The notes under the pieces: generated by a model
What the model saw: the letters and a program-made list of their open reading frames with translations, nothing else
The model's database searches: none
What the model was told of the DNA's origin: nothing
Part shown: positions 1 to 53,137 of the stretch, in pieces
Layout of the letters: each line of letters begins with the position of its first letter
How positions within the stretch are numbered: the stretch's first letter is position 1
Virus record (IMG/VR): IMGVR_UViG_3300044846_001970
Location: 20,511 to 84,510 of that record
Source of the DNA: a virus
Length of the DNA: 64,000 bases
Direction: 5' to 3' (one strand)
Program-made: the position numbers and the translations under genes

Positions 1-1204
1 CTTGACCACCTTGCATTTGCGCAGCCATCATCTGGGCCATTCTTGGGTCCATTTGTTGTTGAGGAGGCTGTTGCATTCCACCAGGTTGCCCTTGCATCAT
101 ACCTTGTTGTTGAGCAGCCATTTGTTGTTGCTGCTGTTGAGCATTTTGTTGATATTCTGAAAGAGCTGTAAGAACAAATTCCTGAGCTTGTCTATCAGGT
201 ATATTTAAATTCATTAATACTTTTTTAATATCATCTACTGAAACTTGGTTTTGAATTAGACTAATAATAATCTCAGTCATTGGTGTACCATTTTCCATTG
301 CAGATCTTACCTTATCAGTAATTTCAGATAACACTTGTTCTAATCCTTTTTTAGCTTGTGGTAAAAATCCACCACGTCTCATTCCAGGTTGTTGCATACC
401 AGGTTGTGGCATTTCTTGTGCTGTTTCTTCTGGCATAGCTACTGGAGAACCATCAGGCATTGTTGGTTGAGCACCTTGTGGTTGAGGTGCTTGTCCTTGA
501 GGAGCACCTTCCATTCCTTGTTGTGGAGCAGATTCTTCTTTTTGAGCATCTGGAAGAATGTCTGCTTCTGTTATATTATTTTCTTCCATATAGGCTTTTG
601 CAACTACAGGTATACCTTGAGGAAATCCTTTTTTACTTTCTTGTGCTAAAGCTAAAGCTCCTAATTTAGATACTGCTTTTTTAATCATTAATTGTGCAGT
701 CTGAACAGCAATCTTATCTGATGTAGAATCTTGAAGAATACCTCTATACTTATTTAGAGTTAAAAATTGTTTTGATAAATCTGCAGGAGTATAACCACCT
801 TTTTTAATAGGCTTGTTAAACATTTTAAGAATACCAGGATCTTTAATCATCATAGACTTAGTATCACTAAAAATAAAACTATCATCTGGAAGATTTAATG
901 GTACTCCATTATTTGAATGTCTTGGTCCTTTTATTTCATAAAATAAAGGATAACCAGAAGGATCAAATGTTAATACAGTCTCACCACCTTCAGCTTCTAG
1001 ATTAGCTTCTTCTCTAGGAACTTTAGTAATAGTTTTTGTTTGAACTGCATCTTTACTTGAAAGCTTTAGGTCAGCTCCACCAAATGAAGAAATATCATTA
1101 GCTAATGAACCATCAACTTGATATCCTGTTTTAGCTTTAGGAGGACTAGTAACCCTTACCTTATAAATATCAGGTTCTTGAGAAATTTTAACTCTATATT
1201 GCAT
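1..1204 (-). CDS. large virion protein, N-terminal part (cut by window edge)
   Basis: The reading frame opens with ATG at 1204 and is still open at base 1, so only about 401 N-terminal residues are visible. The first half carries a stretch I recognise from conserved virion proteins of crAss-like phages: residues such as LNLPDDSFIFSD followed by a helical region with GFPQGIP. A Gln/Pro/Met-rich low-complexity tail follows. Double-glycine motifs occur as SSFGGAD, AEGGET, KKGGY and RRGGF, the same signature as in its neighbours. It is the last visible gene of the late arm, 5 bases after the stop of the 1095-aa gene. I infer a structural or ejected cargo protein; no enzymatic motif is visible. 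Confidence 0.8.
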   Translation of the reverse strand, partial: MQYRVKISQEPDIYKVRVTSPPKAKTGYQVDGSLANDISSFGGADLKLSSKDAVQTKTITKVPREEANLEAEGGETVLTFDPSGYPLFYEIKGPRHSNNGVPLNLPDDSFIFSDTKSMMIKDPGILKMFNKPIKKGGYTPADLSKQFLTLNKYRGILQDSTSDKIAVQTAQLMIKKAVSKLGALALAQESKKGFPQGIPVVAKAYMEENNITEADILPDAQKEESAPQQGMEGAPQGQAPQPQGAQPTMPDGSPVAMPEETAQEMPQPGMQQPGMRRGGFLPQAKKGLEQVLSEITDKVRSAMENGTPMTEIIISLIQNQVSVDDIKKVLMNLNIPDRQAQEFVLTALSEYQQNAQQQQQQMAAQQQGMMQGQPGGMQQPPQQQMDPRMAQMMAAQMQGGQ

Positions 1205-1209
1205 ATTAG

Positions 1210-4200
1210 TTATTTTAAGTATTCTATTTTACCTCCGGCAGCTTCAATTTCTTTAATCTGTTTAAGAGTAAGTGTATATACTCTTCCTTTTTGATATTGT
1301 TTATTAGGTGTACCACCCATTTTAGTCACAACATTATTACCATCAAAACCAATATTCTGAATATTTTTACCATATTGATTGTACCAACCTTTATCTCCCA
1401 TTTGAGAACCAGCAATTTCTGCAGAACCAAATCCTGATTGTCCAGTATTAGGACTAGCTGCATCAGAAGATCTATTTTGTTCTCTAAATGCTTCATCCTG
1501 TTTAGCTTGACTCCAAGAATTAGCTCCCTTAGTAACTATATCAGTAAGACTTCCTTTACCAAATAAATCTGCACCCATTTGTTTAGGATCAAAGGTATAT
1601 GCATTTTGTGTAATAGTTCTACCAACAAAATTTGGATCATTAAATTCTGGTTGATCAACAGTAATACCATTTTTTGCTTCTTGTAGGTAACCACCATATT
1701 CTAAGAACTGTGCATAAGATGGAACAAAACCACCTTGTTGTCTTCTTATTACACCAAATTGATTTACAGGAGGTCCTGAAGGATTCTGTAAGCCATTGTT
1801 TTGTAAAAAAGGATTACCTAATCCTGGATTAGATAAACTAGTTCCTTGTGCATTACCTGCAGGTTGTTGTGGTTGACTAGTTCCTTGAGTAGAAGATGAT
1901 GGTTGATAAGTTGTATTTGTTGCTCCTACAACAGGAACTCCTGGATTTCCAACAGCTAAATTAGGATCAGCTGGTTTACCAGGAGCATTCATATTTACTT
2001 GAGGATTTACTGCAGGAGAACTTGGATTTAAAACATCAGGTTCATTAGCATTATCATCTGGACTACTTGGACCATCAGCATAATCTTCTGGAAATGCAGC
2101 TCTTCCTCTAGCTTCATCTGCAGCTGCTTTTTTTTCACCTTTAGCAATTTTTCTTTGAGTACTCTTTTTAAAAGAAGAATAATCTCCAGAATTTGTTCCA
2201 CTGGAGTTAGTTGCATTAGCACCAGGTGCACCATCAGTTCCATTAGTACCAGGAGTTGTTCCAGGAGCACCATCTGCACTTGCAGGATCTTTAGCAGGAT
2301 CTTTAGAAGGATCAGCATACCAATCAGTAACTCTTTTATTATCAAATGGATTCCATTTATTACCTCTATCTTTATAAGTTTCTTGTCTCATATGTTCTGT
2401 TCCTTCAGGAACATTCCAGTTAGGAGAAAAACCTTGTGTATAACTAAAGTCTTTTGAAAAACCAAAACCAAGTTTTTTTGGAGGACCAAACTGCATATTA
2501 CCTTGTTGTCCTTGTTGTGATTTTTGATATTGTAAAAATTGTTCTATTTGTTGTGGAGTAAATTGTTGTTGTCCAGGAGCAGTAGTATTGGTATTGGTAG
2601 TTGTAGTTGTTGTAGTAGGGGCTGGTTGTTTTGTATTAGAACTAGGAATATTGCTAAAAGCATTTGAGCTATTAGCACCAATTAAATTTTCATTTGGTAC
2701 TCCTTGTGTATTTCCTTTAGCAAATGGATTAGTTAATTCAGCACTTAATTCTGGTTTAAATTTTGAAGAACCATCTATATTAAATTTATTTTTAGCCCAT
2801 CTATCAAAACCTCCACCAGGACCAAAACTTTGAATACCTCCACCATAAGCATATTCATCTCCACCATATATAAACTTTAATAATTCAGGATTATTAGGAT
2901 CTATCATAGATTGATCAACATATCCTCCATCATCCATATATCTTCCAACTTGCATACCGTATGCTGCCATAGGATCTACATCCATATCATCTGTATAGGG
3001 AACTTGTGAAGGATCTATAGGATCTATGGTGCCATCATTACTAGGATCTTGAGGAATAAATTTATTTAAATTTTGTTGTTTTTGATTTTGGTAAGACCCA
3101 GGGATCATTGAGGCATAAGGATTAGCAAAAGGATTTGTTAATAAACTTTCTGCACTAGGAAGACTTACCTCTGGTACAACAGGTAAACCATCTGGACCAA
3201 TACATTGATCAGAAGAAGCATCATATACAGCTCCTGGAGGACAATTTAATCCTTTTTTATTAGAAGATAAATGACCTTGTGTTGCACTTGAACTTTTTGT
3301 ATTTCCAGCAACTTCATCTAAGGCTTTATTATTAACACTTGTAATAACTTTTTGTCTAACTTGTGATGGATAAGAAACTGATTTCCAACTTCCTCTATTC
3401 ATTCCAGACATCATTCCTGGCATCATTCCATATGCTCCAGGTAAAAGATTCACAAGATTTCCTAAAGCTTTTACATCCCAATCAGCTGTAGCTTTTCTTA
3501 TACCACCTAATGGTCCAAATTCATAACTAGTATTAACACCTGGTATTGAATGAGGTGTTCCAAATAAAGCTCTGTTAGCTCTTCTTATCCGGCCTCCACG
3601 GCCATATTCATTTTTCATAATAGTTGTATTTAATGCATTTTCATCCATTTTTGACATAGTGTGCTGTAATGCTTCTCCATAACCATGAAGTTCATCAATC
3701 CAATCATGAGGCTCTTGAGCTCCACCATTTGCTTTTGTATTCATATTTTGATAGGACTCTTCAGCTTGTTTTTTCATCATTGCCTCATTACCCATTTGTT
3801 TTACAGTACTTGCAAACATTTTATTTTGTTTTGTATTATTACCCATTGGGTCACCAATACTTCCTGCTGGAGGTAAATAAAATTCACTGTTTTCTACTTC
3901 TTCTCCTTCTGCAGCTTTTCTAAGTTTTTTTATATAATCATTAATATATTTACTTTTACTTTGTTTACTTCCTCCAAAAGCAAAAGATGCTGGTACAGCA
4001 TTAGCATCCATTCCTACAAAGTAAGGTTGTTTAGCTTCAGGAATAACATTATCATTCATATACTGTCCACCTTCTGCATACTCTGCATCTTCATAACCAT
4101 CATCTTCATTAGCAAGTTCACTTCCCAAATTATTACTTTCATAGTAACCATACGTTTCACTATCAGGTATTTCTTCTACAGCTTCTACTTCTTCTACTTT

Positions 4201-4497
4201 TTTATTATAAGGAGCTTCTTTATCATATGGAGCAGTTTGTGAAGATGAGTTATAGTTATCTAATTCTTGAAGTGTATCATACATTTCATATACAGTATCT
4301 TCAATTTTTTCTCTAGGTATTTTAAAATCTACTAATGCAGAAATAACTTCTTCTGGAGAAGTTCCATTACTTAATTCAGAATCAATGTATGCATCAATAG
4401 TATCTGATTGTCCACCCGCTTTCTTAACAAACTTATTAAGCTTGCTAATAAATCTTGGAGTTTCTCCAGGTTGTGCTTTACGTATTTTTACTTTCAT
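1210..4497 (-). CDS. low-complexity giant virion protein (1095 aa)
   Basis: The protein opens with a basic segment, then an acidic region, then long stretches rich in Gly, Asn, Pro, Gln and Thr, including a run of threonines and a Gln-rich block near the middle. Double-glycine motifs recur (AEGGQ, AFGGS, KANGGA, GRGGR, DDGGY, QQGGF, EYGGY, KMGGT). One cysteine pair forms a C-P-P-G...C hairpin motif (CPPGAVYDASSDQC). No enzymatic motif is visible. Its place after the muzzle-like and 2106-aa genes matches the position of packaged cargo proteins in crAss-like phages, and that role is an inference. A late-type promoter motif lies just upstream of the ATG. Confidence 0.85.
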   Translation of the reverse strand: MKVKIRKAQPGETPRFISKLNKFVKKAGGQSDTIDAYIDSELSNGTSPEEVISALVDFKIPREKIEDTVYEMYDTLQELDNYNSSSQTAPYDKEAPYNKKVEEVEAVEEIPDSETYGYYESNNLGSELANEDDGYEDAEYAEGGQYMNDNVIPEAKQPYFVGMDANAVPASFAFGGSKQSKSKYINDYIKKLRKAAEGEEVENSEFYLPPAGSIGDPMGNNTKQNKMFASTVKQMGNEAMMKKQAEESYQNMNTKANGGAQEPHDWIDELHGYGEALQHTMSKMDENALNTTIMKNEYGRGGRIRRANRALFGTPHSIPGVNTSYEFGPLGGIRKATADWDVKALGNLVNLLPGAYGMMPGMMSGMNRGSWKSVSYPSQVRQKVITSVNNKALDEVAGNTKSSSATQGHLSSNKKGLNCPPGAVYDASSDQCIGPDGLPVVPEVSLPSAESLLTNPFANPYASMIPGSYQNQKQQNLNKFIPQDPSNDGTIDPIDPSQVPYTDDMDVDPMAAYGMQVGRYMDDGGYVDQSMIDPNNPELLKFIYGGDEYAYGGGIQSFGPGGGFDRWAKNKFNIDGSSKFKPELSAELTNPFAKGNTQGVPNENLIGANSSNAFSNIPSSNTKQPAPTTTTTTTNTNTTAPGQQQFTPQQIEQFLQYQKSQQGQQGNMQFGPPKKLGFGFSKDFSYTQGFSPNWNVPEGTEHMRQETYKDRGNKWNPFDNKRVTDWYADPSKDPAKDPASADGAPGTTPGTNGTDGAPGANATNSSGTNSGDYSSFKKSTQRKIAKGEKKAAADEARGRAAFPEDYADGPSSPDDNANEPDVLNPSSPAVNPQVNMNAPGKPADPNLAVGNPGVPVVGATNTTYQPSSSTQGTSQPQQPAGNAQGTSLSNPGLGNPFLQNNGLQNPSGPPVNQFGVIRRQQGGFVPSYAQFLEYGGYLQEAKNGITVDQPEFNDPNFVGRTITQNAYTFDPKQMGADLFGKGSLTDIVTKGANSWSQAKQDEAFREQNRSSDAASPNTGQSGFGSAEIAGSQMGDKGWYNQYGKNIQNIGFDGNNVVTKMGGTPNKQYQKGRVYTLTLKQIKEIEAAGGKIEYLK

Positions 4498-4510
4498 AAT
4501 AATATATATA

Positions 4511-4525
4511 TTAAATATACTAAAT
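4511..4525 (-). promoter_or_regulatory. late-arm promoter motif
   Basis: Read on the minus strand this is ATTTAGTATATTTAA, about 15-25 bases before the ATG of the 1095-aa gene. It belongs to the TTTA/GTATATTA family found upstream of several minus-strand genes. Confidence 0.5.
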
Positions 4526-4557
4526 TTTAATTTAGTATTTAAACTAAATAAGTTTAC

Positions 4558-7500
4558 TTATTTAAAACCTTTTTCTTTCATATACTTTAGAATACGTTGA
4601 TATTCTTTTGCAGTAACATCAGGTTTTCTATCTGGAGAAATCATTTGATGTGATATAACATCTTTTAAAGATAAATTATATTTTGTAGCAATAGGACTAT
4701 AATATTCTATAAAAGATTTTATTTGAGCTTCTGTTAAAGGAGTATTTACTGTATTACCTTGAAACTCAACACCAATACTAAAATCATTTACATCTTTTCT
4801 TCCATTCCATTCAGACTCTCCAGCATGGAAAGTTACTTGTTCAGGTGAAGCATATACTGTTCTTTTACCATCTTCTTCAATAACAACATGAGATGAACTT
4901 TTTCCTGGTGTCATATATTGAGTTCTAACTTGACCCTCATTATTTTTAACATCTTCATAAGCAGTATGATGTAATACAATATTTTTTACTTCATTTTTTA
5001 ATTTATGACCTTTTTTATAACTTGCATCATTTTTAGTTCTAAGGTTAGGCATGTCAAGTACATACTCTTCTTCATACTCATTAACAGGAGTTTTATAATT
5101 CATTATATATAAACCATTTCCTCCAGATGAATTTTCATTGTCATATGCTTTTAATCTGTCTGCAGTAAGTTTTTTATCATCATAAGATAATCCTCTTGAA
5201 TATGTTCCATTATCTAAAGTCCAAGCTTCAAGATATTGATTAGTTCCTTTTAATTTTTTAAATTCTTTTTTTATAGTTGATAAACTTCCAGATACTAAAT
5301 ATTGTTGTTTAGTTACAGGGTTAACAAAAAGAATTCTTCCTCCTTGAATTGAACCATAATAATCATCTTTATCTTTACCTTTTGTTAAAATATTTAAAGA
5401 ACCATCTTTTATTTTACCATTCTCAAGTACTTTTACTTTAGGTTGTTTGTATCCAGGATTACCTGATTTAGAACCATCTACATATAAATCTTCAATATCT
5501 ATAATCTTATTCATATAAGTTTGACTAAACTTCCAGTCTTTGTTATTTTTAAAATCTTTAAATTGTCCAGTATGTAAATTACCATCAGCATCTAAAGCAA
5601 ATACACTTGTATTATCTGTTATATTTTTTAATTTATCAGAATTTGTGAATGGATGGAAAGTTGTAAGTTCTAAACCTTCAGATTCAATATCATTATAATC
5701 TCCTCTATTTCTATAACCTAATTTTATATTTGATATAGGTAAGACTTGTTGTTTATAATTTCTATTACTATTAGGTATAGTAAATGATTGTTGAGTACTA
5801 TTTAAATTTTTATAATACTCACTTATGCCTAATGGATTATCATTTTCTTTTAATTCAGGTACTTTAATATCATCATCATCTATAAGCCCATAAGTTTTAC
5901 TTTTACGAATTATACCTTGACTAACATATTCTATGTACTCACCTATAGATTCTTTAGTATCTTTTATAAATTCACCTGTGTCTTCAATTGTTTCTTTAAA
6001 AGGATAATTTGTTTGAAAATCAGACATCTTAGGTGTAATAGGTTTTATTTCTTTTCCATTAGCATCATAAGATTTTTTATTAAAATCTTGTTTACTAAAT
6101 TGAGCTGCCATAGAATTAGGAATAGGCTCTACTTTATTTATTGGTTCTGGTTTTAATAAAGCTTTTTGTTGGGCAATAGTAGTTAACCTATTAAATAAAT
6201 CTTTTTCAAAATTTTCATTAATATTTTCTTTTGCTTTAGTTTTACCTTGTGTAAATGCTTGATCTATATATTTTTTTATATTACTAGGAGAAACAATTTT
6301 TGGTTCTTCAAAAGTAGTTATTCCAAATTTACTTAATATATCTTTTGGTGTTTCAACCTTTACTTCTTTTTGTGCTATACCAGGTCTTTGTAAATTTTTT
6401 ATAAAAGTAGCTACATCAATTTTTGGTGCAACAATAGGATCTTTTGCTTTAGGTTTAGGAGTTAGTATTGGTTTAGCATTTTCTATTTGTTTAGGAAATA
6501 CCTTAGAAAAAGGAATTCCTTTTGGAGCTATAGTTGCTGCATACTTTTTAAGATCTTCTTTAACAACAGTTTCTATTTTCTTTTCTATTTGCTTTGGGAA
6601 TACTTTAGGTAGAGGAATTCCTTTTGGCTTACTTTGTGCAGCATACTTACTAAGGTCTTCTTTAATAGGAGTACTTAACTCTGAAAACATATTTGTTAAA
6701 CCTTCTTTAGTACCTATACGTTTAGCAACTAAGTCTTCAAGAGTAGCACCTTTACTAATCATTCTGCTTACCATATTTTTGTATGCTTCATGATTAAAAG
6801 TTTCTTTTCTATTAGGTATTTTAGCTTCTCCAAATTCTCCTTCTAATATTTTTTTTCTTAAACTCATATTAGATTCAAAACTACCATCTGTTAAACCTTG
6901 TTTTTTAGCTTCAGACCATGGTGTACCAGTATATTGTTGCCAAAGTTGAGATACTGTTCCTCCATCAGCTTCTTTAGATAATTCATTATTATGTATTTCT
7001 TCTACTACATATCCTTCAGCAATAAGTTTTTGAATTTCTGATTTAGAAATATTTGTTTCTATTGCCCCACCTTCTTTTTTAAGTTTACCAACTCTTTGTG
7101 CTAATTTAGAAAATACTATTGGAGCTCCAGTATTTATAGTTTTACTTGTTCCATCTGCTTTTCTAATTATATTAAATCCATCTCCTGATTCTACAGAATT
7201 TTCAAATGAAAATAATGATCTTGCTCCAGCTAAGAATGGATATAATGTTGGATCACTATACTTTGTAAATGGTAATATATTAGATGCACCTTTTATTAAA
7301 TTAAATGTTCCACCTCCTATATCTCCTTGAGAATAATCAACTAAAGCATTTGGTATATGTTTAGTTCCTGTATTATACACACCATAACCTCCTAATAAAT
7401 TATTAGCATTAAGTCCTGGTAAAGCTTTAATAGGTTCATACTTTAAATAAGGAGATGCTTTTTTAGATACCTTCATTATAGTTCTAGGCACCAATCCAAA

Positions 7501-10500
7501 AAAGGCATCTGCTGGACCAGCTAAAGTTTTTGCTGCTAATGCTGATCCTCTAAGTCCTGATGCTACTTCTGCTGCTGGTAATATAATATTTAAAGGATTT
7601 GCTAATGTAGCTTGATCATAACTAACATTAGATTTTAATTCTCCACTTAATATACCAGGAGATTCTTGATAATTTCCTCCAGAAGCAGTAGATAAATCTA
7701 CTACAGAATTCATAATACCCGCTCCTAAAGCATCTACACCTGATAATGTTTCAAGAGCACCTGTAGAACTATTATGTATAGCATCATATTCTTTTTTAGT
7801 AAAGTGTTTACGAAGAGCTTTTGAATCTATATAATCTTTATTATAATCACCTAATAAAGCTGGAACACCTGTTGCTTTAATTAAAAAATTACCAAGTTCT
7901 TGTGCTCCAGCAGCAGTTTTAGCCCAAAGAGATGGTTTTAATTTAGATCCATATTTTGAGTTTGCTGCCATATCATAACTTACAGCTCCTTTATCTGCTA
8001 ATTTTTCAACTAACTCAGCATGATTATTTGGATTAATTCCATTATCTTTAGCAAATTTTTCAATTACTGCACTGTTCTTGTCATATTCCCAATTTTTGTT
8101 ATAATTACTTTCTACTTTTTCTGGAAAGTTATCTTGACTAAGTCCAGCCAATCTATTTAAACCTTTATGTTTATTAAGATATTCAGCCTTTTTTTGATAT
8201 ACATAAGCATCTCTAGGATGAGCTTCTTCATAAGCAGTTGTATATGGTGAGTATTGATTAGTATTTACTTGTCGTATATCTTGTACTCTTTCTGTAAGAG
8301 CCATTGGACTTACACACTCTCCTGTTACAGGATCTCTTTGAAATCCTTGTGGACAAGGTTCTCCACCATCATCCATATGATTTAATGAAGGTACAGAAAT
8401 GTCTTCTATAACATAACCTCCTTTTCTATATTCTTCTATTTCTTCTGGAGATAAGTCAGCTATTATTCCACCATCTTCATAATCTTTTCTTCTGTGTAAA
8501 TAAGGAGTTGAAAAAGTATGTTTCTTTTTACCATTAAATAAAGGACCTAAAGGAAAATGTTTATTTAATCTTGGTGTAGTAAAAGAATGCCATTTTTTAT
8601 CCCATTCCCAATCTGATCCTTTAAGTTCTTCTGGATAGTCTTGTGTACCCATAGATTCTATTAAAGGACTTTCTTGTTTATTTATTACTGGTTCTACAGT
8701 AGGTACTATTACTTCTTCTTTAACAGGATCTATTATTTTAACAGGATCTATTACTTCTTCTTTAATGGGTTCAATTGGTATAACAGGTTCTTCTTCTTTA
8801 TTATAACCTAATAAATAATTTGATGGTTTTGCATAGACTGGATAAAAATGTCCACCACCAGGATGTCCTTTAAAACCTATTGGTTTAACTGAAGATTTAG
8901 CCATCATTTTTTTCCATTCACCAAATGAAACCATTGGTTCATTTATAAATGGAATACCATCTTGAGGTGGCATTAATTTTCCAGTACCATATGACATCCA
9001 CGGATCCCATCCAGTTCTAGGTATAGACTCAAAAGTTTTATAAAATTTATCTTTAGCTGATATAGTTCCATATTTTTTAAGTCTAGCAGCCTCATAAGTA
9101 TTATGATTGTTAACTCTAGTAATATATTGATTATATAATTTTTGTTGTTCTTTTTTTGTTATATTTGATTTTGCTAATTCTGCCTCACTATATACTATTT
9201 TTGTATTTTTAGGAATAATTTTACATTCAGTTCCTGTCCAGTATTGTCCTTCGGGACAACCACCTTCCATAGGAGAAAAAATTATTTTTTGTTCAGAAGC
9301 TCCACCTTTCTTTGCATGTATTAATCCTTGACCACCACACTTATGACAAGTAGTAATATCATCACCACCATCTGCAGCATCCCATTCCCAACCACATTTT
9401 TTACATGTTACTTTCTTGGTAAGTAAAGCACCACCTTTAGCAGCTACTTTAATTTCTTCTTCTCCTTCATTATTTTTAGAAATATTTTGAAGCATCCAAA
9501 GAATTTCCTCATCTGTAAATTGTTTTCTAAGATCTTTAATTGGTTTCATTGGTTGCCAATTATCATCACTTCTTTTTTTATTTATATAATTTTGAAATAT
9601 TTCTGGAGTAATTTGTTCTGTAAATGGATCATAAATACCTTCTTTTTTAGCAAGTTGTCTAATTTCTCCTAGTCTTGCTCTAACTTCAGTTGGTTGAGAA
9701 ATATAGTCATGACCTATAGTCTTCCATTCTTTTTGGTTAGAGTCAGAAGATATTTTATGATTTGTTTGAATTATATTTTTTAAATTTTCAAATTGTTTTT
9801 GAAAATCTTTGTCATCTTCAGTAAAACCTTGAGAATATAATATTTGTTTTATTTCTTCATCAGTTTGCATACTATAAGCTTCAGGCCATTTTTCTACTCT
9901 AGATTTATAGTCTTGATTATCTTTCCAATTAGAACCTCTATTTCTAGTAATATACAATTGATCAGATTCAGGCATTACTCTTTCACTAGATTCTTCCTTA
10001 TCATTTGGAAATCTTGGATCTTTAGAATTTATAAAATCCCAATTATATATTCCTTTTGGTCTATCAGATGTATGAAAATATTCATGTGTGTACATAGAAG
10101 GTCCATACTCAAAACCTTCAGGATACACTTTTACCTCTCCTGTTAAACTATTTGAAGTTGCTGCGGGGTTAAAACCATGAGAACTAATAGTTGACGTAGC
10201 CATAATATTTATCGGAGGTATATCAGCAATATTTTCTTTTCTAAGTTTTGTAACATAATCTGCACCTAGTTGATTACCATCAAAACTATTAAGAACCATT
10301 TGATTATACATAGGTGAGTCATGCCAACCCTTAACAAAGTCTAATCCTTCATCAGCATATTTAGGTTCATTTACTAAAGCTTTTTTATAAGCTTCATTTT
10401 TTTCTATATCCTCAAAATATTTTTTTTCTGTAATTTTTTCTTTTTTTCTAATAGCTTTTGTTTCTTCATCAGGTTCAGAAATTAATTTTTTATCAATAGT

Positions 10501-18953: not shown

Positions 18954-20639
18954 TTAAGTACAAGGTACAGGAGTTGGTATTAAAGTTTCACAAGGTCCTA
19001 TGTAAGACATAAGTCCTGATAATTGAATTATAAATCCACCAAGTTGATCAGCATGACCAGCATTTTGAGTAAAGGCCCAAGTATCAGCATCACCTGTAAG
19101 ACTAGGTGAATATGCACCTGCTGCTGTAGCATTATAACTTGAGGGTGCAGTTGGTGTAAAAGTTGGTATATTTTCACCAGATATAATATTACTTATCACA
19201 CTTCTACTTATAGCACTATATTCAATACCAGATCCTGCACTTGCATATGATTCATCATATAAAGGCCCAGATATTTGTAATACACCAGAACTTGAAATAG
19301 AAACACCTACTAAAGAATTTAAACCAGCATTTATATTACCTGTAGTTCTTACTGTTCTTTGAATAATCTGTCTTGTACCTAAAACATAACTTCCATCTAA
19401 TGTATTACCTACTGGTATAACTGATGTAGGAATTACTGAATTACCTTTATTAAACCTAAGACCAATTGCAGTACCTGCCGCCCATACACCACCATTATAT
19501 CCTATTAATAAACATGAGTCAGCTGCATTAACAGAAGTAATAGTATTAAATGTATTTCCGTATGCTAATGGAACATAATCATCTGCATCATTTGATGTAT
19601 TAATAACACCTCCCGCACCAAAACTTGCATTTCCCATAGGAACAACAGCATATCCTCTAAAATGAATTACATTACCAATTCTTCTACATTGTGGTCTACC
19701 TGGATTAGCAGACATAAAAGCAAATCCTGATAAATTAACCCATCCTGTATCTTGAACATTTGCGGTTAATACCCCAGTTGTAAAATCTAAATTAACAGAG
19801 TTTGTATCTTGTACACTTAAAGGTGTACTAGTTATTTGACAAAGAGCAATCCATATATTAGTTATACTTTCTGCTAAAGTTGTTGGAGTTGCTGTCCAAT
19901 TTGGATTAGATGTAATGTCTGTACTAAAACTACAATCAGGAACTAATGAAGTTCCAATTTGAGATATAGTTCCTAATACACCCATTAAACTACAATAACC
20001 ATTAGTAGTGTTATTAATTAATTGATCAAGAACAATATCTAATGAGTATGAATTACCAGAAAGTAAAGTTCCAATATTACAATTAATAACAATACTTGGA
20101 ATTGGAATAGCTGGTGGAGGTGTATCTTCTAATGCAGTTACTCTTATTAATAAATTACTTATCTGTAAATTAATATTAGATATGTCTGTAATGATTGAAC
20201 AAATTCTTAATCCTATTGCATTAACATAATCTACTAATTGCATAGTAGTTTGTGTTCCTATTACAAAACATGGAGCTACACTTACTACACAATCAGGACA
20301 TCCTGTTAAATCTGCTGAACTACTTCTAGTTGAAAATGCATCACTTCTAGCTAAAGTTGTATCAATATTTTCTAAAGCACAAATTCTATCAATTAAAAAT
20401 TGTATTAATGTAACAAAATCTTTTGGTCCACAAGCAGTAATATCAAAGCATGTAAGATCATAATTTTTTATATCTAATATATCTAATATACCACATAGTT
20501 CTAAAGCAAGTGCTTCTACTACATCTGATATAGTGTCTCCTTTACATAACTTAATACATGGAAGATCTGGACCTTGCCAAATGACACAGTTTGATGAAAT
20601 TGGGCTACAAGGAGAGTTATCGTAATTTAAAGGTTTCAT
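18954..20639 (-). CDS. tail fibre protein (561 aa)
   Basis: The N-terminus (NSPCSPISSNCVIWQGPDLP, then CIKLCKGDTISDVV) is the conserved Cys-rich anchor that I recognise in crAss-like tail fibres. Short helical, trimer-like segments with spaced cysteines follow (residues ~60-240), then a Ser/Thr/Gly-rich beta region ending near residue 561 with VPCT. The C-terminal half is the likely distal, receptor-facing part. It has its own late promoter motif and is followed by a mini-fibre gene and a terminator, so it may be expressed apart from the 982-aa gene upstream. Confidence 0.8.
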   Translation of the reverse strand: MKPLNYDNSPCSPISSNCVIWQGPDLPCIKLCKGDTISDVVEALALELCGILDILDIKNYDLTCFDITACGPKDFVTLIQFLIDRICALENIDTTLARSDAFSTRSSSADLTGCPDCVVSVAPCFVIGTQTTMQLVDYVNAIGLRICSIITDISNINLQISNLLIRVTALEDTPPPAIPIPSIVINCNIGTLLSGNSYSLDIVLDQLINNTTNGYCSLMGVLGTISQIGTSLVPDCSFSTDITSNPNWTATPTTLAESITNIWIALCQITSTPLSVQDTNSVNLDFTTGVLTANVQDTGWVNLSGFAFMSANPGRPQCRRIGNVIHFRGYAVVPMGNASFGAGGVINTSNDADDYVPLAYGNTFNTITSVNAADSCLLIGYNGGVWAAGTAIGLRFNKGNSVIPTSVIPVGNTLDGSYVLGTRQIIQRTVRTTGNINAGLNSLVGVSISSSGVLQISGPLYDESYASAGSGIEYSAISRSVISNIISGENIPTFTPTAPSSYNATAAGAYSPSLTGDADTWAFTQNAGHADQLGGFIIQLSGLMSYIGPCETLIPTPVPCT

Positions 20640-49714: not shown

Positions 49715-50347
49715 TTATTCGTTATCATAAAACATTCTTTCTGAATCTTCTGTTTGCCACTTTTCATATCCTTCACAGTTATACCATTCATTACATACTA
49801 AGTAATCTGGTTTTTCTGGGAAAGCTTTAGTTACAAAGCTAGGCTCAGACCATTTAATCCTGTTGTTAGGTTGTAAAGCTATTTGACCATTCTCAAGTAA
49901 AATGATATGATGAGACTTATGTTCCTTTGGATCTTCAGCTAATGTAAGATCTGTGTTCATGTCATTTGACCCCCAGTTGATAGTACCATGGTAATTACCT
50001 TTATAAAATTTATGGTCTTTCATATATACTTCTACAGGAGTATCATATAGGTAAGACAAACTTATAACAGTAAAGTTGTAAGAGAAACAATTCCATAACT
50101 GTAAAAAATGAAACGGTAGATCTGGATCTGGTGTTTCTGGTTCAGTCAATAAAGCATGACTTGGTAATTTATCTCTAAGGGCACCATTCTCTAATAGTAC
50201 CTGGAACAATGCTGCCTGACCCGGCATACATCTTACTGATATTATTATACCAGGAGTAAACTCTCCTTGACCTTTAGTATGTTGGTACATGTATTCATTT
50301 CTTACAAATACTTTAAGAGGAAAGAAGTTATGTTCTATATGTGCCAT
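49715..50347 (-). CDS. conserved phage protein (210 aa)
   Basis: This looks like a folded protein with many aromatic residues (FPLKVFVRNEYMYQHTKGQG near the start, and LQLWNCFSYNFTVISL near residue 90). I recall similar proteins in other crAss-like and environmental phages, with no known function. It is the first gene of the minus-strand arm and its upstream region holds the TGTCACA inverted repeat, so it may be directly regulated there. No catalytic motif is evident. Confidence 0.65.
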   Translation of the reverse strand: MAHIEHNFFPLKVFVRNEYMYQHTKGQGEFTPGIIISVRCMPGQAALFQVLLENGALRDKLPSHALLTEPETPDPDLPFHFLQLWNCFSYNFTVISLSYLYDTPVEVYMKDHKFYKGNYHGTINWGSNDMNTDLTLAEDPKEHKSHHIILLENGQIALQPNNRIKWSEPSFVTKAFPEKPDYLVCNEWYNCEGYEKWQTEDSERMFYDNE

Positions 50348-50674: not shown

Positions 50675-50941
50675 GATCATGTAGTTGGTCTTACTACAGC
50701 AGCCCCCACCCCACGCCAGCCAGGGGTGTACCCCCCATAGATATAATACAACTCTTTACTAATGATAAAGTATTTTATAAAATATATTCTACTAGAAAGA
50801 ATAATGTATGTTATGTATAGATATGATATGATATGTATGATGTATGTATATATATAGTATATATAATAGAAGATGAATGCTAGGTGTTGTGCTGGGTGTG
50901 ATGTATGATGACACACACACAACAACAACAACAAGATATAT

Positions 50942-50961
50942 TAATACAACTTTATACTATT
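50942..50961 (+). promoter_or_regulatory. early promoter motif, copy 1
   Basis: TAATACAACTTTATACTATT, about 40-46 bases before the ATG of the first rightward gene. Eight copies of this element (consensus TWATACARCTTTNNACTAWT) lie between here and 52753. Confidence 0.75.
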
Positions 50962-50987
50962 AATAATAAATATAAAACTAAATGATT

Positions 50988-51140
50988 ATGAAAGAATTAA
51001 TTAAGATTGCTATGACTATGTCTAGTATACTATGTGTGTATGTATTAGCTAGTGATGCTAATGATACCATAATGATTGCTACAGGATTTGCACTCATCAT
51101 GAGTCTTGGTATATATGTATTAGCACTTACTGATAAGTAG
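50988..51140 (+). CDS. small membrane protein (50 aa)
   Basis: ATG at 50988 (an in-frame ATG at 50982 would add two residues), stop TAG at 51138. The protein has two hydrophobic stretches (IAMTMSSILCVYVLA and TGFALIMSLGIYVLAL) and little else. It directly follows copy 1 of the early motif, so it is likely among the first genes expressed. I infer an inner-membrane host-modifying peptide; the function is unknown. Confidence 0.6.
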   Translation: MKELIKIAMTMSSILCVYVLASDANDTIMIATGFALIMSLGIYVLALTDK

Positions 51141-51156
51141 GTGTTAATGCTATATA

Positions 51157-51176
51157 TAATACAGCTTTATACTATT
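51157..51176 (+). promoter_or_regulatory. early promoter motif, copy 2
   Basis: TAATACAGCTTTATACTATT, 47 bases before the ATG at 51204. It lies inside the upstream extension of the next frame, which argues for the downstream start. Confidence 0.75.
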
Positions 51177-51203
51177 ATTAATATATATATAAAACAATTT
51201 ACT

Positions 51204-51398
51204 ATGAAACAAATTAGAATACTACACTACATTACATCAGGAATTATATTGCTTATGATTTTTGAAGGATTATTTACTATGGGCCAAGCATTTAAGTTTG
51301 ATACTTATAATTGGTTTGGATGGTTTACTCAAATAATATTCATACTGTTTACTGTATTAACAGCTATGAGAATTGCTAATGACGCAGAAGGGAAGTGA
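51204..51398 (+). CDS. small membrane protein (64 aa)
   Basis: The open frame reaches back to a GTG at 51141, but that would overlap the early motif and begin right at the previous stop; the ATG at 51204 (MKQIRILHYI) is preferred. Two transmembrane segments are visible (ITSGIILLMIFEGLFTMG and WFTQIIFILFTVLTAM). The stop codon lies in the loop of a terminator hairpin. Function unknown; an early membrane-acting protein by context. Confidence 0.65.
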   Translation: MKQIRILHYITSGIILLMIFEGLFTMGQAFKFDTYNWFGWFTQIIFILFTVLTAMRIANDAEGK

Positions 51399-51405
51399 TT
51401 CCCTT
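51388..51405 (+). terminator. terminator overlapping a stop codon
   Basis: AAGGGAA - GTGA - TTCCCTT is a 7-bp stem with a 4-base loop that includes the TGA stop of the 64-aa gene. The next early motif starts six bases later. Confidence 0.65.
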
Positions 51406-51410
51406 TATAT

Positions 51411-51430
51411 TAATACAGCTTTTAACTAAT
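51411..51430 (+). promoter_or_regulatory. early promoter motif, copy 3
   Basis: TAATACAGCTTTTAACTAAT, 42 bases before the lipoprotein ATG at 51453. Confidence 0.75.
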
Positions 51431-51452
51431 AATAATATATAAACTAAAACAA

Positions 51453-51698
51453 ATGAAAAGAAATGTAAAATTAATTATTGCCGCATACTTTGTAGCAATA
51501 ACATGTGTTGCTATGCTTGCAACATCTTGTAGTACATCAAGTCATGCATGTGATGCTTATGGCAAAGTTAAGTGGGAGAACAGCATTGATAACCCTGAGA
51601 ATGAGGAGTTTGTTGTAGAAGTTGCCTTCAATGAAGGATGTACTATAGAACAAGTGACTCAAGAACAGTTTGATGCAAGATACTCTGAAGGGTATTAA
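51453..51698 (+). CDS. small lipoprotein, paralog 1 (81 aa)
   Basis: A signal peptide with a lipobox (ATSC) is followed by SSHACDAYGKVKWENSI and a conserved acidic domain (NPENEEFVVEVAFNEG, EQVTQEQFDARY). The 81-aa gene at 54509 encodes a close paralog. The CDAYGKV segment after a Ser-rich linker resembles small Bacteroidota lipoproteins, so a host origin is possible. As an early outer-membrane lipoprotein it could block superinfection, which is an inference. It is served by copy 3 of the early motif and a terminator. Confidence 0.7.
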   Translation: MKRNVKLIIAAYFVAITCVAMLATSCSTSSHACDAYGKVKWENSIDNPENEEFVVEVAFNEGCTIEQVTQEQFDARYSEGY

Positions 51699-51702
51699 TA
51701 TA

Positions 51703-51722
51703 AGTAGAGCTTAGGCTCTACT
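51703..51722 (+). terminator. terminator after lipoprotein paralog 1
   Basis: A perfect 8-bp stem AGTAGAGC / GCTCTACT with a TTAG loop is followed by TTATTTTATT. Confidence 0.8.
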
Positions 51723-51731
51723 TTATTTTAT

Positions 51732-51751
51732 TAATACAGCTTTTGACTAAT
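51732..51751 (+). promoter_or_regulatory. early promoter motif, copy 4
   Basis: TAATACAGCTTTTGACTAAT. No ORF longer than a few codons follows before the next terminator-like hairpin. Confidence 0.75.
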
Positions 51752-51857
51752 TTTGATGAATACTATATGAGTTAACTCCAATAATAGAGATCATCTGAGC
51801 CAAGTAAGTTGATTGGCAATATAAAAATAAAAGGGTATTCAACAAACCTTTTTTTTA
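51752..51857 (+). ncRNA. candidate small RNA 1 (no ORF between promoter motif and terminator)
   Basis: The ~105 bases between copy 4 of the early motif and copy 5 have no coding capacity; the only ATG frame stops after four codons. The interval ends with an AAAGG / CCTTT hairpin and a run of eight Ts (51830-51857). It is therefore a promoter-terminator unit without a protein, which suggests a short regulatory RNA. A spacer left by gene loss is the alternative. Confidence 0.4.
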
Positions 51858-51858
51858 T

Positions 51859-51878
51859 TAATACAGCTTTTAACTATT
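51859..51878 (+). promoter_or_regulatory. early promoter motif, copy 5
   Basis: TAATACAGCTTTTAACTATT, directly after the T-run of the preceding unit. Confidence 0.75.
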
Positions 51879-52010
51879 ATTGACTAGTAAGTAGACCAAT
51901 TGAAACTTACATATGTACACCAAAAGGTTGGTTCCTTATTTGCTTTGGACCGTAATACCACAAGAGAGTTAGCACTCACCATTAGAGAGGATTCATGTCC
52001 TCTCTTTTTA
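51879..52010 (+). ncRNA. candidate small RNA 2 (or tiny-peptide transcript)
   Basis: About 130 bases between copy 5 of the early motif and a strong terminator (51984-52010). The only start frame is an 19-residue peptide from ATG at 51913 (MYTKRLVPYLLWTVIPQES). The rest shows self-complementary pieces, such as GGTTCC with GGACC around 51940-51953. A structured small RNA seems more likely than a peptide, but both are possible. Confidence 0.4.
51984..52010 (+). terminator. strong terminator
   Basis: AGAGAGGA / TCCTCTCT 8-bp stem, 6-base loop, then TTTTTA. It ends the ORF-less unit that starts at copy 5. Confidence 0.9.
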
Positions 52011-52017
52011 TTATATC

Positions 52018-52037
52018 TAATACAACTTTATACTAAT
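52018..52037 (+). promoter_or_regulatory. early promoter motif, copy 6
   Basis: TAATACAACTTTATACTAAT, 35 bases before the ATG at 52053. Confidence 0.75.
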
Positions 52038-52052
52038 CTTAAAACTTAAACT

Positions 52053-52244
52053 ATGATTGCAAAAATTATCTTTGTATGGTACTTGTTTACAGGTACTATA
52101 ATTCCCACAGAAAAAGTGGATGACAGACAATGCTATTCCGTTTTCTTTGAAGATGGAAAATGTGTAGACTTAGCCTATAAGGGTGAAGTATTAGAATGGA
52201 TTGAGACAGATTCATTTGAGTATGATGAAGACAGAGAGGATTAA
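52053..52244 (+). CDS. small early protein with N-terminal hydrophobic segment (63 aa)
   Basis: The first ~18 residues (MIAKIIFVWYLFTGTIIP) form a signal-like or membrane segment. The remainder is acidic, with YSVFFEDGKCVDLAYKGEVL and an Asp/Glu-rich end. It probably sits at or beyond the inner membrane. Preceded by copy 6 of the early motif and followed by a terminator overlapping its stop. Function unknown. Confidence 0.65.
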   Translation: MIAKIIFVWYLFTGTIIPTEKVDDRQCYSVFFEDGKCVDLAYKGEVLEWIETDSFEYDEDRED

Positions 52245-52260
52245 TTTCCTCTTTGTTTTT
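52235..52260 (+). terminator. terminator overlapping a stop codon
   Basis: AGAGGA / TCCTCT stem around the TAA stop of the 63-aa gene, followed by TTGTTTTTTTTG. Confidence 0.7.
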
Positions 52261-52336
52261 TTTGTCTCCAGCCTGTGTAACAAGTAGACTTTGGTACTGA
52301 TAATCAGATAGTTAAAAAATTGCTTACGCGTCTTTT

Positions 52337-52356
52337 TTATACAGCTTTTAACTAAT
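52337..52356 (+). promoter_or_regulatory. early promoter motif, copy 7
   Basis: TTATACAGCTTTTAACTAAT, 51 bases before the ATG at 52388. The preceding GCTTACGCGTCTTTTTT is nearly repeated before copy 8. Confidence 0.75.
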
Positions 52357-52387
52357 TTTGATTATTAACCTTTAAAATTTATTTATT

Positions 52388-52675
52388 ATGTTTACAAAAA
52401 CACAAACTTTACAAGCATTTGCTAATGCTAACGGAATTACTAAGTTGGACCTTGTTAAGAACCCCAACACAGGTAAAAGATTTGCTACAACCAATACAGG
52501 GCTTACTATGCGCATCTCTGAGAAAGTCTCTTCAGACTTAGACGGAGAATATAGCATCTCTTGGTTTGCACCTGAAGATGGAGAAGCATCTTGGATGTTA
52601 CACCCAACAGGAGTTAGTAATGTACTTGGTACACTTAGCTTTGCACCTGTTGCTAACTTTGAGACAGCAATCTAA
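52388..52675 (+). CDS. early soluble protein (95 aa)
   Basis: A folded-looking alpha/beta protein: FTKTQTLQAFANANGITKLD forms an N-terminal helix, then VKNPNTGKRFATTNTGLTMR and a beta-rich rest. Similar small proteins occur in other phages, without function. It has its own early motif copy and terminator and is less AT-rich than neighbours, which suggests strong expression. Confidence 0.65.
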   Translation: MFTKTQTLQAFANANGITKLDLVKNPNTGKRFATTNTGLTMRISEKVSSDLDGEYSISWFAPEDGEASWMLHPTGVSNVLGTLSFAPVANFETAI

Positions 52676-52684
52676 GCACTATAG

Positions 52685-52704
52685 CCCACACTTAACTGTG
52701 TGGG
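52685..52704 (+). terminator. terminator after 95-aa early gene
   Basis: CCCACAC / GTGTGGG 7-bp stem with a 6-base loop, followed by TTATTTTTTATT. Confidence 0.9.
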
Positions 52705-52733
52705 TTATTTTTTATTAAAGCTTCGCGTCTTTT

Positions 52734-52753
52734 TTATACAGCTTTCTACTAAT
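52734..52753 (+). promoter_or_regulatory. early promoter motif, copy 8
   Basis: TTATACAGCTTTCTACTAAT. It is followed by a structured, ORF-free stretch rather than a gene. Confidence 0.7.
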
Positions 52754-52755
52754 AT

Positions 52756-52807
52756 TGTGCTGTTAATGTAGTGTTATATAGTACCAATAATTGGTATTAC
52801 CAGCACA
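52756..52807 (+). ncRNA. candidate structured RNA after early motif copy 8
   Basis: TGTGCTGTTAAT (52756-52767) pairs with ATTACCAGCACA (52796-52807) with one mismatch, and an inner hairpin ACCAA-TAA-TTGGT lies at 52783-52795. The element begins three bases after the promoter motif. Together they suggest a short transcript with a stable fold; a protein-binding DNA site is the alternative. Confidence 0.4.
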
Positions 52808-53137
52808 TATTAGTATGCTCAAAAGTATCTTTACAGATATCCTGAAAGCTATAGTGGTAAAGGGTTTGAGAATTAAATAATGTGAGAGAAAGAGTGAGAA
52901 ATTGACTAATAATCTCTCTATGTTTTTATTATAACAAACTTTATAGTTAATTGGGTTAACAGCCTTTACATTAATTTATATAGCTAAATAGCTTAAATAA
53001 CTTTACTATTATCTTTGTTATCTCTCTCTATAGTTAGAATAGCATAATTAGTATTTCCCGAATATTTCAGTTTTTTATATATAGCCAATTACAGGGCTTG
53101 GTACTGTTATTATGATTACAATCTTAAATTACAAGTT
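52808..53137 (+). other. gene-free AT-rich stretch
   Basis: I see no convincing gene here. A weak GAGAGA / TCTCTC pair with a T-run (about 52880-52930) could terminate the copy-8 transcript. A degenerate early-motif-like sequence follows at about 52933-52953 (TAACAAACTTTATAGTTAAT). The rest is AT-rich leader up to the 52-aa gene. Confidence 0.4.

Follow-up and report, generated by a model that had tools for sequence, protein, structure and literature searches.

At the start of the rightward arm of a crAss-like phage genome, a 20-base sequence is repeated in front of a series of small genes, and the question that this locus raises is whether these elements are start signals for transcription and, if so, which polymerase reads them. 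The earlier note, made from sequence alone, listed eight near-identical promoter-like elements, and suggested by inference that they are promoters of the virion RNA polymerase of crAss-like phages. The region analysed here (the window) is a stretch of 64,000 bases, positions 20,511 to 84,510 of the 84,510-base record IMGVR_UViG_3300044846_001970. The pattern TWATACARCTTTNNACTAWT occurs in it exactly eight times, always on the + strand, at 50942, 51157, 51411, 51732, 51859, 52018, 52337 and 52734, and the observation of the note is thus confirmed at every position it gave. It missed a ninth copy with one mismatch (TAATACAACTCTTTACTAAT), which is located at 50744. When up to three mismatches were allowed, 15 matches were found in the window against 3.2 +/- 2.0 in shuffled sequences, and the other six have two to three mismatches and are scattered at chance level. 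The note had named a scan of the full genome as a check on its reading, and in the whole record that scan found no further exact or one-mismatch copy. The motif score of this region is 101, against at most 54 in eight order-2 Markov resamples. For the five elements with a gene behind them, the distances from motif start to ATG are 40, 47, 42, 35 and 51 bases, so the range of 35-51 given in the note is right, whereas the elements at 50744, 51732, 51859 and 52734 have no ORF directly behind them. The features of the region are as follows (window coordinates).

50744..50763 (+), element 1, with one mismatch (TAATACAACTCTTTACTAAT), the first of the array, followed by a non-coding leader
50942..50961 (+), element 2, upstream of ORF 50982-51140, with no strong hairpin before it
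50982..51140 (+), small ORF of 52 aa, hydrophobic, with a weak hit to phrog_1130 membrane protein
51157..51176 (+), element 3, upstream of ORF 51204-51398
51204..51398 (+), small ORF of 64 aa, hydrophobic by sequence
51389..51410 (+), hairpin AGGGAAGTGATTCCCT plus T-rich tract before element 4, terminator-like
51411..51430 (+), element 4, upstream of ORF 51453-51698
51453..51698 (+), small ORF of 81 aa, with a lipoprotein-like N-terminus by inspection (...MLATSC)
51704..51731 (+), hairpin GTAGAGCTTAGGCTCTAC plus T-rich tract before element 5, terminator-like
51732..51751 (+), element 5, with no ORF behind it, followed by candidate small RNA A
51752..51858 (+), candidate small RNA A, conserved behind the element in two relatives (86% and 80%)
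51859..51878 (+), element 6, with no ORF behind it, followed by candidate small RNA B
51879..52017 (+), candidate small RNA B, conserved at 78-82% in relatives, ending in a hairpin/T-run
51984..52010 (+), hairpin AGAGAGGATTCATGTCCTCTCT plus T-run before element 7, terminator-like
52018..52037 (+), element 7, upstream of ORF 52053-52244
52053..52244 (+), small ORF of 63 aa, with homologues at 43-60% in several relatives
52337..52356 (+), element 8, upstream of ORF 52388-52675
52388..52675 (+), small ORF of 95 aa, with homologues at about 48-56%
52734..52753 (+), element 9, followed by about 384 nt without a called ORF

A search of Rfam gave no match. The array opens the rightward arm just past a divergent ferredoxin-like gene (49715-50347, phrog_3704), which is the first gene of the leftward late arm with capsid and portal genes. 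That the rightward arm is early is inferred from the same layout in crAss001 and phi14:2. The phage is crAss-like by its portal and capsid PHROGs and by a giant polymerase gene outside the window (record positions 2-8104, - strand, 2701 aa, running off the end of the contig), for which tblastn finds crAss-like phages. This protein carries IPPTEIVAKSGADFDVDK where phi14:2 RNAP has VAYTEIPTKTGSDFDIDK, and the D[FY]DxD motif is kept in every relative examined. Family profiles hit the phi14:2 RNAP structure, PDB 6VR4, at E 2e-14 and 1e-14. The genome therefore encodes a homologue of the polymerase invoked in the note. The phage belongs to an uncultured branch, in that hundreds of IMG/VR contigs encode relatives of its capsid protein, the best 80 at 91-96% identity, while the nearest annotated phage capsid is only 28% identical. 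Nucleotide searches of annotated phages found nothing.

To examine whether the array is private to this phage, as the note had proposed to do by a scan of related genomes, we collected relatives starting from the ferredoxin-like gene and from the polymerase, and ran de novo motif discovery on their early side. A first EM motif finder collapsed onto low-complexity sequence, and a site-capped, leave-one-out search with Markov background was used instead. Most of the informative relatives have an array; in 26 genomes, counting this one, an array of ~20-nt elements was found at the same place and on the same strand, namely at the start of the early arm, divergent from the late genes. Most share an '...nACT...' frame, but at least a dozen different recognition cores occur. 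With individual genomes of the comparison denoted by G numbers, the sequences immediately before ACT are, for example, TAATACAgCTTTtt (this phage), TTaTACCTCTTcTg (G009), TAACTGTGTttT (G035), TtaCTAACCCTaa (G016), atAAACCTCtCAta (G034), tTAAACAGCTCA.a (G040), AACATCTTt.T (G041), tTATCCAACTCAtA (G017) and ACCATTTTatA (G018, G060), and there are also forms with ATT or ACA in place of ACT. The G021-type and G035-type cores are ACAGCTT and AACTGTGT, respectively. In the 14 genomes scanned at full length, every hit at or above the strength of the weakest array site lay in the array on the early strand, except one weak hit in G006. No array was found in G004 or G082. The same search on the early regions of crAss001 and phi14:2 gave scores at the level of Markov controls, while G000, G021, G034 and G017 are far above theirs. 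Such an array is thus a feature of this uncultured branch and not of all crAss-like phages, which qualifies the link that the note drew from phi14:2.

The elements show a regular unit structure. Of 182 elements in 25 genomes, 127 are followed by an ORF of at least 35 aa starting 5-61 nt after the ACT, with a median of 28 nt, compared with 284 of 1000 random positions; about 30% of the elements have no such ORF behind them. The 45 nt upstream fold more stably than random positions (-10.9 against -5.3 kcal/mol, p 1e-29), and the last 14 nt are T-rich. The layout reads as promoter, short leader, small gene, terminator and next promoter. In the window, however, the hairpin is weak or absent before elements 2, 8 and 9, so that it is not a promoter requirement.

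In order to ask what reads the elements, we compared motif distance with protein distance in 14 genomes for all 50 protein families present in at least nine of them. The giant polymerase ranks first (Spearman 0.61, Mantel p 0.003); the next best p is 0.035, which is unremarkable in 50 tests, and the genes beside the polymerase, of 2362, 1221 and 926 aa, give rho 0.22, -0.01 and -0.05. With full-length alignment and shift-optimised motif comparison, the discovery genomes (n=12) give rho 0.72 (p 6e-4), and eleven further genomes fetched afterwards give 0.79 (p 2e-4), although motif seeds in this second set were picked by eye from the discovery output and several of its genomes share a motif class with the first set. 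Removal of near-duplicates leaves 0.75 (n=19, p 2e-4), and pairs under 50% polymerase identity still give 0.69. Thirteen control proteins from the late arm near the array correlate at -0.02 to 0.36, and the polymerase effect stays at 0.66-0.81 when each is held constant. Polymerase and backbone distances are nearly unrelated (0.14), which separates the two: partial Mantel rho is 0.735 (p 2e-4) for the polymerase given the backbone, but 0.058 (p 0.30) for the backbone given the polymerase. Mantel tests on related genomes are not counts of independent events, and parsimony of motif class barely separates the two trees, with 11 changes on the polymerase tree and 12 on the backbone tree. Of 14 genomes whose nearest polymerase and nearest backbone differ, 12 have the closer motif with the polymerase neighbour. 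G000 and G031 share a 98% identical array-adjacent ferredoxin-like protein, yet the 3' half of the motif differs and each sides with its polymerase relative. In contrast, G041 and G064 share a core (AACATCTT) with only 40% polymerase identity. The correlation is spread over the whole polymerase, and a localised specificity domain was sought in it but not found. Finally, the motif of G056 was read before its polymerase was compared, and has the form ATACARCTTnnnACT...GGAT of the G002/G005/G031/G058 group; its polymerase then proved to be 60-64% identical to that clade and at most 47% to the rest.

Based on these results, the interpretation of the note is supported, and we consider it highly likely that the elements are the early promoters of the phage's own virion-packaged, single-chain RNA polymerase (crAss-type D[FY]DxD vRNAP). 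In this view, the polymerase, after injection, would bind each element on the entering DNA through the lineage-specific core (here ATACAGCTTT), start near the constant ACTAnT block, make a short, mostly single-gene transcript whose ATG lies about 28 nt after the ACT, and stop at the hairpin/T-tract just before the next element. Our analysis establishes the array with its strand, place, unit layout and restriction to the early arm, the presence of the polymerase gene, and the specific co-variation of the motif with that protein, whereas initiation and termination of transcription, packaging and direct recognition are inferred, as transcript 5' ends, binding and the protein content of the virion were not measured here. 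In phi14:2, the early genes are read by the injected polymerase and the early transcription by this homologue is rifampicin-resistant (PMC10136315), and that protein is annotated as structural by MS/MS; however, phi14:2 and crAss001, in which the homologous polymerase is thought to read early genes, are the phages without a comparable array at this sensitivity. The polymerases also differ in size, being mostly about 3,300-4,740 aa here against 2,180 aa.

ALTERNATIVES. The alternative that survives best, though unlikely, is that the elements are sites for a phage-encoded DNA-binding regulator or sigma-like specificity factor, injected or made very early, that recruits the host or phage polymerase. 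A co-inherited factor of this kind could also diverge with the polymerase, and several neighbouring giant virion proteins have no known function. It remains possible, but among the 50 families only the polymerase stands out, the early genes are patchy across relatives, and none of those present in at least nine genomes matches as well. Ordinary host promoters, differing because hosts differ, are very unlikely. Early phage genes are commonly read by host polymerase, and the relatives may infect different hosts, which are unknown (a search of a genome collection gave one contaminant-like hit only). However, the Bacteroidota TAnnTTTG is found near four of the 182 elements, none with TTTG at the right spacing, against 15 of 1321 random windows, in agreement with the note that the element does not look like this promoter; furthermore, the motif does not follow the backbone, and G000 and G031 differ in it in step with the polymerase. 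Equally unlikely are RNA-level leader elements or recombination sites, for although early genes are highly exchangeable between relatives and repeats between cassettes would help that, possibly as a by-product of being promoters, the elements lie only about 10 nt after terminator-like hairpins, leaving little room for another promoter, and neither idea predicts co-variation with a polymerase about 60 kb away.

A phage-borne polymerase with its own repeated early promoter is already known from T7, N4 and P23-45. The closest analogue is Thermus phage P23-45, whose two-barrel virion RNAP reads a repeated AT-rich motif upstream of the pre-early genes, present in relatives that have the RNAP and absent in relatives without it (PMC10770324). 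There the start sites were mapped, as they are not here, and the terminators carry a conserved 26-nt motif, whereas here the hairpins vary in sequence and at least a dozen cores co-diverge with the polymerase. The T7/T3/SP6-type promoters are likewise compact ~20-bp elements with a recognition core and a constant initiation-side block, of which orthogonal variants track the polymerase. The first element even resembles the T7 promoter (TAATACAACTC... against TAATACGACTC...), but the other cores do not, so the likeness looks coincidental. A T7-type RNAP (PF00940) was absent from the genomes searched, G000 with its incomplete contig among them, while T7 itself was detected as a positive control; an initial search without such a control was not relied on alone. 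N4 also has a packaged polymerase, early genes and hairpins near the start signals, but N4 promoters are DNA hairpins, whereas here the conserved element shows no inverted repeat by inspection and the hairpins before it vary and are weak or absent before several elements.

A more speculative reading, which we regard as possible but slightly less likely than not, is that the array and the virion polymerase form an exchangeable identity module. Promoter core and polymerase would switch together to many mutually distinct 'alleles', about as decoupled from the rest of the genome as if swapped by recombination, perhaps so that an injected polymerase reads only its own genome and not that of a co-infecting rival.

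What DNA signal the giant crAss-type polymerases recognise appears not to have been described in the papers that we could search, among which the primary report on the phi14:2 polymerase was not included, so this is not proof of novelty. New here are the assignment of a repeated early element to a crAss-type polymerase and the many co-diverging cores in phages whose capsid protein is nearly unchanged. The elements are candidate promoters in a directly testable form, with natural pairs (for example G000/G035 at 60% polymerase identity, or G017/G018 at 59%) that in this view recognise different cores and so can help locate the specificity residues. They would also give a diverse set of promoter/polymerase pairs from a two-barrel, RNAi-like polymerase family, and a case of fast promoter turnover in phages whose capsid protein is 88-94% identical to that of this phage.

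The features within the array region that bear on what follows are:
50744-50763, the first element of the array
50982-51698, the stretch holding the first three ORFs of the array
51752-51858, candidate small RNA A, behind element 5
51879-52017, candidate small RNA B, directly behind element 6
52754-53137, about 384 nt without a called ORF, after the last element

The first element resembles the T7 promoter (TAATACAACTC against TAATACGACTC). However, no T7-type polymerase was found in the genomes searched, and the other motif classes do not resemble the T7 promoter. The first three ORFs of the array encode small hydrophobic or lipoprotein-like products, and it is inferred only that these could act early at the envelope, for example in superinfection exclusion. 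Some of the relatives recognized by their ferredoxin locus, L154, L168, L174 and L191 among them, gave no clear array in up to 6 kbp of sequence; in these relatives the arrays may be weaker, moved or of another form.

Candidate small RNA B is conserved at 78–82% in three relatives (G021, G030 and L196) and ends in a hairpin plus a T-run. A frame-breaking indel argues against a peptide, and a search of Rfam returned no match. Candidate small RNA A is 86% and 80% identical in the relatives L118 and L190, respectively, where it likewise lies behind their elements. Parts of the region after the last element are conserved in three further relatives (L141, L180 and L147), and this region is possibly regulatory or a replication feature.

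In one relative, G016, the polymerase gene is split into two ORFs that lie 146 nt apart (contig C1, 16964-23509 and 23656-27336). The virion polymerase of the present phage (G000, contig C1, 2-8104, outside the window) is 27–67% identical (most 35–67%) to that of phages whose capsid protein is 88–94% identical to its own, and the distances between the polymerases hardly follow those of the backbone, indicating fast divergence plus recombination.
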